Below are positions 25,121 through 63,594 of a stretch of DNA of 64,000 bases, in pieces. This DNA is from Rivularia sp. MS3 (GTDB lineage: Bacteria > Cyanobacteriota > Cyanobacteriia > Cyanobacteriales > Nostocaceae). The stretch is from NCBI GenBank assembly GCA_019192545.1, contig JAHCMI010000005.1:1-64000 (forward strand), written 5' to 3'. The translations under genes and the position numbers were made by a program. Within the stretch, counting starts at the first letter, position 1. Each line of letters opens with the position of its first letter. The notes beneath the pieces were generated by a model. That model was not told where the DNA came from, made no database searches, and saw only the letters and a list, made by a program, of their open reading frames with translations.

Positions 25121-25152
25121 AAACCCGGTTTTTTCAAAAAGCTGGGTTTTTA
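25121..25152 (+). terminator. Hairpin beside the broken end of nifK
   Basis: AAACCCGG and CTGGGTTT with nested TTTTT/AAAAA give a hairpin followed by T residues. It lies inside the out-of-homology tail of the nifK frame. Confidence 0.5.
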
Positions 25153-26519
25153 CTATACATACCTGTCTGGAGTATTGAAAAAATCCCATTATCTATTCCC
25201 AACCCCCAAACTTTTTGACTTGATAGCCAACACATTAGAGAACGCATGTGCCATAAGTCTTTTCCGGGCCAGAAGGTTGCACCTTTACCGTAATCGTTGC
25301 TAGCGCATAACTCTTCGATTTCAGTTTTGAACTTATCGTTGGAGTTGTGAACTAAAACGTGAACGGGTTCAGCACCTAACTCCATCAAGAAGCTGGTCAT
25401 ACCGTATACTAAATCTGGGTCGCCGTAGATAGCAAAGCGCTTACCATGTAACCAAGCGTGAGAGTCAGTCATAGCGTCAACTGCACGTCCGCGCTCTTCC
25501 TCTAACTCTTGAGGAATGGGCTTACCGGTTAATTCGCTGAGCTTCATCAAGAACTCATCAGTTCCGCGAATACCCCAAGGGCGAACAACTTCTGTCTTTT
25601 GCTTCCACTCTTTCTCGATATATTCGCGAGTCTTAGGAGTAGAGTGTGCTTGCAAGCAAAGTGTAGCTTCAGCGTTGCAAGAATCAGCAGCATCTTCCAA
25701 TTTTGTACCTTTGGGGTACATATTGAACTTACCATCGTTGGGAGCATCAACATAATCGGAGTTGTCAGCCAACAAGGTATAGTCAATATCCATCAACTTA
25801 GCAATACGCTTAACTTCGCGTAAGTTGCCTACGTAGGTATCAAAACCAGGAATGATATTGATTTTGCCATTGGTTTTATCTTTCTTCTTACCTTGAGTAA
25901 GGTTAGAAAGAATACCTTTCATCATATTATCGTAGCCGGTAATATGAGAGCCTACGAAGCTAGGAGTGTGAGCGAAAGGTACGGGTAAATCTTCAGGAAT
26001 GCCACCTTCGTTTTTAGCATTACCGATAAATGAACCCAAGTCATCACCGATTACCTCAGCCATACAGGTAGTGGAAACGGCAATCATTTTAGGATTGTAT
26101 AGCTTGTAAGCATTAGTCAAGCCATCAATCATGTTCTTCAAACCACCGAATACCGCAGCATCTTCAGTCATTGAAGAAGAAACAGCAGAGAAAGGCTCTT
26201 TGAAGTGACGGGTTAAGTGGGTACGGAAGTACGCTACACAACCTTGGCTGCCTTGGACGAAAGGTAGAGTTCCTTCAAAACCAGCAGCAGCGTAGATAGC
26301 TCCTAAAGGCTGACAACCTTTTGCTGGGTTAACGGTTAAAGCTTCGCGTGCAAAGTTCTTTTCACGATATTCCCAAGACTTAGTCCATTCAGCAACTTTC
26401 TTAACTTCTTCGGGATCGTGTCCGCCTTCAAACTTTTTCTTGCCTTCAAAAAGTTCTTGATATTCCGGATTGTGGAATAAATCAACGTGGTCTTTAATTT
26501 TGTCTGGATTCTGTGGCAT
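25134..26519 (-). CDS. nifK: Nitrogenase MoFe protein beta subunit, 3'-interrupted
   Basis: NifK pairs with NifD to form the MoFe protein and holds half the P-cluster. The frame encodes 461 residues but only the first 428 (26519-25236) are NifK: it starts [18 protein letters not shown], includes [11 protein letters not shown] and [10 protein letters not shown] (P-cluster Cys) and [12 protein letters not shown], and breaks after [10 protein letters not shown]. The normal continuation, about 82 residues, is absent and replaced by an unrelated 33-residue tail. GGAG precedes the ATG by the right spacing and it lies 98 nt behind nifD, as in the nifHDK operon. The gene therefore cannot give a full NifK as it stands; DNA excision or loss of function are the options. 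Confidence 0.93.
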
Positions 26520-26617
26520 TGTGTGTTCTCCAAGCTTGCTGGTAAATAAAATTTAGTGGTTTGATTGTGAGGATAGGGAATAAGAACAGATTTTCCTATT
26601 CCCTGTATCCTTAATCC

Positions 26618-26769
26618 CTAAGCAGCTGCTTTAGCTTTTGCAGCTTGAGTAGTAGCAGCAGGTTCTTCATTCTTCCAAGGGGTTCCAATCAATTTCCAGG
26701 AAGGATTGTTAATTGCTAGATCCATGTCACGAGCGAAGATAGCAAAGCCATCATAACCGTGATAGGGTC
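26618..26769 (-). CDS. nifD: nifD segment 4 of 4 (3' end)
   Basis: Encodes the C-terminal 49 residues of NifD plus stop: [18 protein letters not shown] through an Ala/Lys-rich end. It has no start of its own. It begins just after the left copy of GGATTACTCCG (26770-26780) and joins in phase to segment 3 (ends at 57930) once the 31-kb element is removed. With all pieces joined, 233 + 247 + 883 + 152 nt = 1515 nt, an open 504-residue protein. Confidence 0.95.
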
Positions 26770-26780
26770 CGGAGTAATCC
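26770..26780 (-). repeat. nifD element left direct repeat (att site)
   Basis: GGATTACTCCG on the minus strand; coding continues from here into segment 4. Flanking bases differ from the right copy on both sides, so the match is exactly 11 bp. Confidence 0.95.
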
Positions 26781-26950
26781 TTTTTATGCTTTTAAATAAA
26801 TCAATATGAAATGTTTTTTACAAACATTATTAATCTTAAGCATTGTTCATTGATGACATATTATATTTACAATTTCGTTTAGTTTAATTATAACTATGCA
26901 TGTCCGGGATTAAAGATTACGAATATTGATTTAAAGTTTAATTTTTATAT
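26781..26950. promoter_or_regulatory. Edge region with inverted repeats upstream of xisA-like gene
   Basis: AT-rich, 170 bp. ATGCTT...AATGTTT (26787-26816) faces AAACATT...AAGCAT (26822-26843) as an imperfect inverted repeat between the edge and the recombinase start. The other two elements carry inverted repeats in the same relative place. Candidate recombinase binding arms or autoregulatory operator; inference. Confidence 0.45.
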
Positions 26951-62634: not shown

Positions 62635-62686
62635 AACTGCTTATAGCAAACATTTAACTAAATCAAAATGTTCTCTATAAGCAGTT
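62635..62686. promoter_or_regulatory. Inverted repeat between recombinase start and element edge
   Basis: AACTGCTTATAG (62635-62646) and CTATAAGCAGTT (62675-62686) pair perfectly; AAACATT and AATGTT just inside extend it. Same placement as the repeats in the other two elements. Confidence 0.55.
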
Positions 62687-62729
62687 TAAAATATTTTGCA
62701 CTAATTTATTTTAACGATAAAACATATTT

Positions 62730-62736
62730 TTAATCG
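62730..62736. repeat. Right short direct repeat of the 1.73-kb element
   Basis: TTAATCG; partner of 60996-61002. Confidence 0.8.
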
Positions 62737-62962
62737 GACCCCAAACCACACCTTTAGAACCTGCATATGCACAACCACGTGCGGTCATAACACCAGGAAG
62801 AGACTTGACGTTAGATTTTACGCCGCAATCACTCTTACCTTCTTCGTGAACGTTGAGGTGCTTAGTACGTCTTTTCTTAGCTTTCTCAGGATAAGCGTCT
62901 AAAACTTCGTTAACAAGCTGTTGTCTTTCTTCGACGATGTTTTTCTTATCTGCGGGTGACAT
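62730..62962 (-). CDS. nifD: nifD segment 1 of 4 (5' end)
   Basis: NifD is the MoFe protein alpha subunit that binds FeMo-cofactor. This piece has the real start ([20 protein letters not shown]) and 77 residues plus two bases, to GVVWGPI. Contains the P-cluster ligand region KSDCGVKSN. Unexcised, the frame adds only KNMFYR and stops. It lies 143 bp behind nifH as in nifHDK. Confidence 0.95.
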
Positions 62963-63105
62963 ATTTCTCTGCCTTTTTTACTACTGGTAACTACTTGGGA
63001 TTTTAGGAATAGTAAGAGTTGATTGAAGCATTTGGGTAAAGGGTAAAGGGTAAAAGCTAGAATATACAGTTTTACCTTTACCTTTACTCAAGACATCATT
63101 TGCTA
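62963..63105 (-). other. nifH-nifD spacer
   Basis: 143 bp with a GGGTAAAGGGTAAAAG short tandem repeat (63033-63053). GCAGAG precedes nifD by 7 nt as a weak binding site. Confidence 0.6.
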
Positions 63106-63594
63106 TTAGCTAGCAGGAACTTCCTCAGCTTTTTTACCAATGATATCTGCGTGCTTAGAATCATCATCCAAAATACCGAACTCAACTAAGAGTGCTTCTA
63201 ACTCATCCATTTCAAGAGGTGTAGGAATAGCTAGGTTTTTGTTGTTGATGATTTTTTCAGCTAAAGCAGCGTACTCTTTAGCTTGGTTGCTCTCAGGAGC
63301 GTACTCATTAACAGTCATACGACGCAATTCAGCGTGCTGAACGATGTTGTCACGAGGTACGAAGTGAATCATTTGAGTGTTCAAACGCTTAGCCAAGGTT
63401 TCGATAAGTTCGATTTCTCTATCAACCTTACGGCTATTACAAATCAAACCACCCAAACGTACACCACCACTATGAGCGTACTTGAGTACACCACGTGCAA
63501 TGTTGTTAGCAGCGTACATTGCCATCATCTCACCAGAGGTAACAATGTAGATTTCTTGTGCTTTACCTTCGCGGATAGGCATAGCAAATCCACC
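63106..63594 (-). CDS. nifH: Nitrogenase iron protein, 3' part, 5'-interrupted
   Basis: Encodes [20 protein letters not shown] to the end of NifH (about 162 residues): switch region, [18 protein letters not shown] and an acidic tail. Homology stops at 63594. The next codon upstream should be Cys132, a [4Fe-4S] ligand, but reads AGC, and unrelated sequence follows. The ATG at 63582 is internal, not a start. P-loop and first half are absent from the window. Another element edge is the likely cause. Confidence 0.93.

Follow-up and report, generated by a model that had tools for sequence, protein, structure and literature searches.

The window analysed here, a stretch of 64,000 nucleotides that comprises positions 1 to 64,000 of contig JAHCMI010000005.1 (C109) in the 9.19 Mb, 174-contig assembly of Rivularia sp. 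MS3 (genome G000), carries on its minus strand the 3' end of nifH, the complete nifD, split into four, and the 5' end of nifK. These parts of the nitrogenase operon nifHDK are arranged as follows:

63106..63594, minus strand: nifH 3' piece (codons ~136-297), which marks the right border of the insert termed E3 below
62730..62962, minus strand: nifD piece 1, 233 nt, ending in the repeat CGATTAA
60749..61002, minus strand: nifD piece 2, with the repeats CGATTAA and GTCCCATCGGTCTC
57930..58826, minus strand: nifD piece 3
26618..26780, minus strand: nifD piece 4 with the stop codon
25239..26519, minus strand: nifK 5' piece (codons 1-427), with nifK broken at 25243

Organization of the interrupted nifHDK operon

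The original prediction, made from the window alone, had claimed that nifD can be restored from its four pieces by fusion at direct repeats, with a length of exactly 1515 nt. Rejoining the sequence at CGATTAA, GTCCCATCGGTCTC and GGATTACTCCG reproduced this result, giving 504 codons including no internal stop, with all joins in phase and the stop codon contained in the 1515 nt. It had also held nifH and nifK to be broken and had called for a search of the remaining genome for the nifH 5' and nifK 3' parts, which we located on C109 at 162-167 kb and on C125:

C109 166592-166557: nifH first piece, 36 nt, just downstream of nifU, located by reading the sequence
C109 near 164.7 kb, outside the window: nifH codons 13-67
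C109 near 162.5 kb, outside the window: nifH codons 65-136
C125:35357-35620: nifK 3' part, beside nifE and nifN, on a contig other than that of the window

The rejoined genes encode NifH, NifD and NifK with 297, 504 and 511 codons, and all three joins are open. The proposal of multiple breaks thus holds, while their number rises from five to seven, with three in nifH (nt 30, 191 and 405), three in nifD (nt 227, 467 and 1353) and one in nifK (nt 1277). The summed insert DNA amounts to at least 189 kb, compared to 3.9 kb of nifHDK coding DNA. The genes nifB, fdxN, nifS, nifU, nifE and nifN are uncut in the same genome. A second intact nifHDK operon, which had been named as a finding that would speak against excision, was searched for in the genome and not found, and neither was any other full-length nifH, nifD or nifK. 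The remaining whole or near-whole matches to PF00148 and PF00142 above the cut-off are the confirmed nifE and nifN, together with three genes of contigs C45 and C87 that we read as chlorophyll-reductase subunits. A HetR_C domain is present in the genome.

Seven inserts with their own recombinases

The seven inserts, named by the gene nucleotide at which they reside, are:

E1 (nifH-30): 1845 bp, tyrosine recombinase
E2 (nifH-191): 1893 bp, tyrosine recombinase
E3 (nifH-405): 98,854 bp, from the window to C109:162448 outside of it, serine recombinase
E4 (nifD-227): 61003..62736, 1734 bp, tyrosine recombinase
E5 (nifD-467): 58827..60762, 1936 bp, tyrosine recombinase
E6 (nifD-1353, the common nifD 1355 variant): 26781..57940, 31,160 bp, repeat GGATTACTCCG
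E7 (nifK-1277): 1..25243 in the window and, beyond a contig gap, on to C125 35613, 51,952 bp or more

Their recombinases are of the tyrosine type in E1, E2, E4, E5 and E6. E3 and E7 encode large serine recombinases that include a zinc ribbon. The recombinases encoded in the window, together with that of E7, are:

61189..62613, minus strand: E4 tyrosine recombinase, 474 aa, weak Pfam Phage_integrase match with catalytic-type motifs
58929..60338, plus strand: E5 tyrosine recombinase, 469 aa, weak Pfam score with catalytic-type motifs
26951..28228, plus strand: E6 XisA-type tyrosine recombinase, 425 aa
On C125, beside the nifK 3' part: E7 serine recombinase, 530 aa

Heterocyst-forming cyanobacteria are known to carry interruption elements in nifH, nifD, nifK, hupS, hupL and coxA, which are flanked by direct repeats and encode a recombinase of the tyrosine or serine type close to a border (Hilton, Meeks and Zehr 2016, PMC4874684). 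The inserts described here agree with this group in that the gene parts rejoin in frame and a recombinase resides near a border in all seven cases, its start located 24-171 bp inward. The orientation of the recombinase follows the rule of the same survey throughout, pointing in the direction of the gene in E1, E3 and E4, where it is found at the start border, and opposite to it in E2, E5, E6 and E7, where it is found at the end border. E1, E2, E4 and E5 measure 1.73-1.94 kb and contain a single gene each, the recombinase, whose frame fills 1410-1470 of 1734-1936 bp. The R, HxxR and Y motifs are kept in all 51 tyrosine recombinases that we compared, strictly in 49 and with GHG in place of GHS/T in two, including E5.

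E6 resides at nt 1353, and the recombinases found at this site in all eight genomes of the genus form one clade (support 100/97). In position variant and XisA-type recombinase it resembles the nifD element (xisA) of Anabaena/Nostoc PCC 7120, and its 11-bp repeat GGATTACTCCG is the same as that of the PCC 7120 element. The two differ in that E6 spans 31 kb and is one of seven inserts, whereas the PCC 7120 element spans 11 kb (PMC1079853).

If the inserts were removed from RNA or protein as introns or inteins, the DNA itself would stay interrupted. Such an explanation would account for the fact that several cuts fall at conserved codons, a property generally known from introns and inteins, but it fits poorly with inserts that carry DNA recombinases, are oriented antisense to nif with respect to these genes in four of seven cases and reach up to 99 kb. 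Searches of the window with Rfam at gathering scores returned no intron family but only CRISPR repeats, and no intein or homing-endonuclease domain was found among the 31 of 54 open reading frames of the window that were scanned. On this evidence from the window we have rejected introns and inteins, which we regard as hardly credible.

Direct repeats at the junctions

To describe the borders, we surveyed 61 junctions of neighbouring pieces in the eight genomes of the genus (G000 to G007), a set that does not include the nifH junction of G006. A repeat of at least 5 bp in register is present at 48 of them and a run of 4 at one, while 12 show no run of 4 or more. Repeats of at least 7 bp were found in 43 of the 48 junctions compared to 4 of 2190 mismatched flank pairs (50-nt stretches), and repeats in register therefore exceed chance. 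In the source genome, six of the seven inserts are bordered by repeats of 5-14 bp in register, with lengths of 7 (CGATTAA), 14 (GTCCCATCGGTCTC) and 11 bp (GGATTACTCCG) in nifD and of just 5 bp at E7. Six of the 12 junctions lacking a repeat are gaps or tiny missing pieces. The other six are real and all belong to serine-recombinase inserts, including E3, so that the idea of a clear direct repeat being retained by each insert failed at these sites. The predicted join core of E3, GTATGTGGTGGATTTGC, equals the core of the uninterrupted gene in G006.

Selection on the cut genes and the case for excision

The cut genes are under purifying selection. In comparisons with G006, G005 and G004, dN/dS is 0.056-0.111 for the cut nif genes, 0.032-0.107 for the uncut nifB, nifS, nifU, nifE and nifN, and 0.073-0.183 for the recombinases where a match passed the cut-off. 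These ranges omit several comparisons in which no match was obtained, the value for nifB of G005 is based on 64 codons, dS is above 1 in three of the comparisons with G004 recombinases, and the G004 matches for the recombinases of E2 (66%) and E5 (60%) are nearest relatives and at most putative orthologues.

To find uninterrupted versions of the sites, six congeners were searched at an identity above 80% with the sequence spanning each rejoined site, 105 nt in length or, in the case of E1, 89 nt. Such versions were found in at least one congener for six of the seven inserts, as illustrated by E3 (99 of 105 positions matching in G006 and 102 in G005), E4 (101 of 105 in G001), E5 (94 of 105 in G006 and 98 in G005) and E7 (96 of 105 in G002). 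The exception is nifD-1353, which is filled in all eight genomes.

We consider it very likely that the window and its surroundings contain the single-copy nifHDK of a heterocyst-type cyanobacterium, which is cut by seven interruption elements, each equipped with its own site-specific recombinase and excised in heterocysts. Each insert contains its own recombinase gene and both of its borders would share an element-specific core sequence. Upon heterocyst differentiation, each recombinase would be made and recombine its two cores, thereby releasing the insert as a circle, after which nifH, nifD and nifK would be continuous. Since heterocysts do not divide, the inserts would be inherited via vegetative cells. 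The excision, its timing, the circular product and the assignment of one recombinase to each insert are what we infer from the arrangement of genes and borders. The original reading as excisable elements is supported in kind by the in-phase joins, the lack of a second nifHDK and the presence of HetR, although multiplicity as such is not unprecedented in light of the published survey (Hilton et al., 2016, PMC4874684).

Several observations weigh against this interpretation. No excision product was seen. The in-register match at E3 is only 2 bp in the source genome; at the same site, a repeat of 13-19 bp is found in four of the five other genomes with the insert, and the fifth, G003, has none of this kind. 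A contig gap lies inside nifK-1277, so that the size given for E7 is a lower bound and E7 may comprise more than one insert. In a tree of the tyrosine recombinases described below, nifD-298 of G004 falls apart from the other three of that site, and nifH-65 of G000 and G004 are not paired. An NtcA-type site (GTAN8TAC) within 150 bp upstream is present in just one of 36 E1-type recombinases, one of which has nearly no upstream sequence, and we have consequently rejected the idea that these genes are commonly preceded by an NtcA site. In the nifH-405 insert of G002 (C106:21949-47545), the 15-bp repeat is kept and the serine recombinase is truncated to its first 86 codons, which indicates that some inserts can become trapped; this one is possibly trapped, or excised in trans.

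The truncated recombinase of G002, the short core match at nifH-405 and the sheer number of seven breaks would all be expected if nifHDK were a dead operon, broken by insertions and left as decaying pseudogenes. Against this stand the open joins of all three genes, the low dN/dS of cut genes and matched recombinases, the retained recombinase motifs and the intact neighbouring nif genes. On the basis of dN/dS we have rejected this explanation, which we hold to be improbable.

Interruptions across the genus

The nifHDK operon is cut in all eight genomes of the genus, with the following numbers of inserts:

G000 (source genome): 7
G001: 7
G002: 4
G003: at least 7 (genome 84% complete, nifH-49 break at contig ends)
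G004: 15
G005: 8
G006: 6
G007: 10 (with one short piece of nifD not found)

In G004, nifH is divided into eight pieces and nifD and nifK into five each. All 15 inserts are accompanied by a recombinase, and junction repeats of 7-15 bp are present at 13 of the 15. G005 and G007 contain an extra nifD insert beside the 1353 site, which cuts off a piece about 23 nt long. On an eight-genome tree calculated from those nifHDK codons that are distant from the insertion sites, with some states of G003 set as unknown, the 19 nifHDK sites require at least 36 gains or losses, and nifD-467 is placed as one gain in the source genome. In a family sample of 126 genomes, NifD was matched in 125; besides G000, the best match is unbroken across codon 160 in 123 genomes and G042 has no coverage there. 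Among the congeners outside this sample, G004 and G007 are uncut at nifD-467 and G003 has no sequence at this position.

The distribution of sites also bears on the possibility that wrongly joined contigs mimic interruptions. The assembly consists of 174 contigs, with nifK spread over two, as would suit an artefact, but six of the seven sites are filled in at least one of the seven other genomes, including the low-contig assemblies G005 and G006, and the shared sites mostly contain related recombinases (with nifH-65 as exception) and in-phase repeats. We thus view an assembly artefact as very improbable. At the nifH-49 break of G003, contig C1065 (L184) ends at the junction and has exactly 55 bp in common with the start of C595 (L185), which then continues into non-nifH sequence. 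This overlap resembles a fork in the assembly graph and might reflect joined and unjoined forms within the sample, or strain variation.

Relationships among the recombinases

In a tree of the 51 tyrosine recombinases, with sites labelled by codon, grouping by site prevails, as found for nifD-453 (8 of 8), nifD-79 (6 of 6) and nifK-89 (6 of 6). The nifD-227 recombinases from six genomes, including E4, form a clade (100/100). A further clade of 29 sequences (100/100), whose inner forks are largely unresolved, combines 12 assigned sites (nifH-12, -65, -98 and -163; nifD-160, -298 of G004 and -456; nifK-89, -97 and -155; hupS; coxB) with some unassigned sequences. It holds the recombinases of E1, E2 and E5 and excludes E4, which is located just outside, and the second coxA insert. 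Where the borders are known, its inserts mostly measure 1.7-2.1 kb, with nifH-98 of G007 extending to 15.9 kb. The tree suggests that one tyrosine-recombinase family was retargeted repeatedly.

A pair of direct repeats spaced by ~11 bp, with a unit that varies among inserts, is often found just before the recombinase start, and similar pairs occur towards the opposite end, for the most part at a distance of ~70-100 or 150-177 bp from the core on that side. This pattern was first noticed by eye and tested afterwards. For 17 sites, the match to the own end averages 14.5 of 18 positions compared to 12.6 for the ends of other inserts, and the observed mean was reached in none of 10,000 permutations over these sites. 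Individually, only 9 of 17 score above the 95th percentile obtained with shuffled ends. The own end ranks first, alone or in a tie, at only 6 of the 17 sites, and that of E5 ranks 11th. The paired repeats would be consistent with arm-type sites, as found in the lambda integrase system.

Cargo and other inserts in the source genome

Beyond their recombinases, the large inserts carry additional genes. E6 contains a paralogue of elongation factor G (EF-G) (38796..40883, minus strand, Pfam), copies of which are 91-98% identical in the nifD-1353 inserts of five congeners. It also contains a CRISPR array (33276-34171, plus strand, 13 repeats of 37 nt), which would exit the chromosome with the insert. 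A psbA-like gene of the photosystem II D1 protein (Photo_RC) is located in E7 (145-1227, plus strand), and would equally be removed by excision.

Outside nifHDK, the source genome contains the following inserts, which raise its total to at least 12:

coxB: 1690 bp, 23-bp repeat
coxA, with tyrosine recombinase: 1838 bp, 15-bp repeat
coxA, with serine recombinase: match to Pfam COX1 divided at profile position 51-52
hupS: 1840 bp, 7-bp repeat, weak evidence alone
hupL: 6317 bp, 17-bp repeat

The hupS assignment is based on split domain coverage, since out-of-phase matches obtained in that search equal or exceed the 7-bp repeat in length. At the serine coxA insert, the sole in-phase match of at least 6 bp disagrees with homology. 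The original estimate of five excisions for a functional operon is therefore right in kind and too low in count, as seven would be required for nifHDK, with five more in coxB, coxA (two), hupS and hupL. A serine recombinase at L103:7020-8555 (C125, minus strand) adjoins a hupS that lacks its first codons, and it is thus probable that hupS carries a second insert, the 13th of the genome. Two further recombinases have no identified interrupted gene, one at C109:172197-173591 (L102:8197-9591, minus strand), upstream of the intact nifB and with a close relative in G006, the other, a serine recombinase, at C110:46026-47321.

Discussion

The described inserts closely resemble those of the published survey in their target genes, direct repeats, recombinase near the border, the positions nifD 227 and 1355 and nifH 405, and the EF-G paralogue, which had already been noted in the nifD-1353 insert (Hilton et al., 2016, PMC4874684). 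The main text of the survey reports positions nifD 227, 895 and 1355 and nifH 405, four nifD variants, four elements in one nifD of Rivularia sp. PCC 7116, and maxima of four elements per gene and 11 per genome. We infer from G006 that the fourth nifD variant resides at about nt 777. The kind of insert and its multiplicity as such are thus already published, and the source operon is an extreme and intact-looking case.

Compared to the main text of that survey, we find seven inserts in nifHDK, a genome-wide total of at least 12, a nifD site at nt 467 that appears to be outside its four nifD variants, an insert in coxB, a gene that is absent from its Table 1, and a multiplication of tyrosine-recombinase inserts, whereas replication was there described mainly among serine recombinases (PMC4874684). 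The claims of new sites are based on this main text and the search of 126 genomes, and no later survey of interruption elements was found in the openly licensed PMC literature. Within this scope, we found no published precedent for the nifD-467 site, the totals, the congener with 15 inserts and an eightfold divided nifH, or the dispersal of small tyrosine-recombinase inserts over about a dozen sites. A related process rebuilds split genes during sporulation by excision of SP-beta from spsM and of skin from sigK in Bacillus and Clostridium (PMC4191935, PMC5025042), but these are single prophage-like inserts, whereas many small inserts reside here in one operon.

A broader proposal, which we advance tentatively and with slightly more doubt than trust, is that the mostly one-gene tyrosine-recombinase inserts multiply in this genus like 'DNA introns' and may have moved to about a dozen sites in genes of heterocyst type, with recombinase, core target and perhaps arm repeats diverging together. 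Our reserve stems from the position of E4 outside the clade of 29 sequences, the 15.9 kb of nifH-98 in G007 and the weak test of the arm repeats. The congener G004 would have to remove 15 inserts, with gene pieces as small as ~23-36 nt in the genus, and the elements would constitute a bacterial counterpart of the internal eliminated sequences of ciliates, tolerated because the heterocyst does not divide.

A long-standing question is whether such inserts act selfishly, have no effect or benefit the host, and in what way new sites originate. With eight genomes, 19 nifHDK sites in varying combinations, a mixture of empty and filled sites and a clade of small recombinase-only inserts, it becomes testable how recombinases change their target, how many excisions are tolerated and whether N2 fixation suffers from this burden. 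Finally, the recombinases may serve as natural site-specific tools with differing cores.

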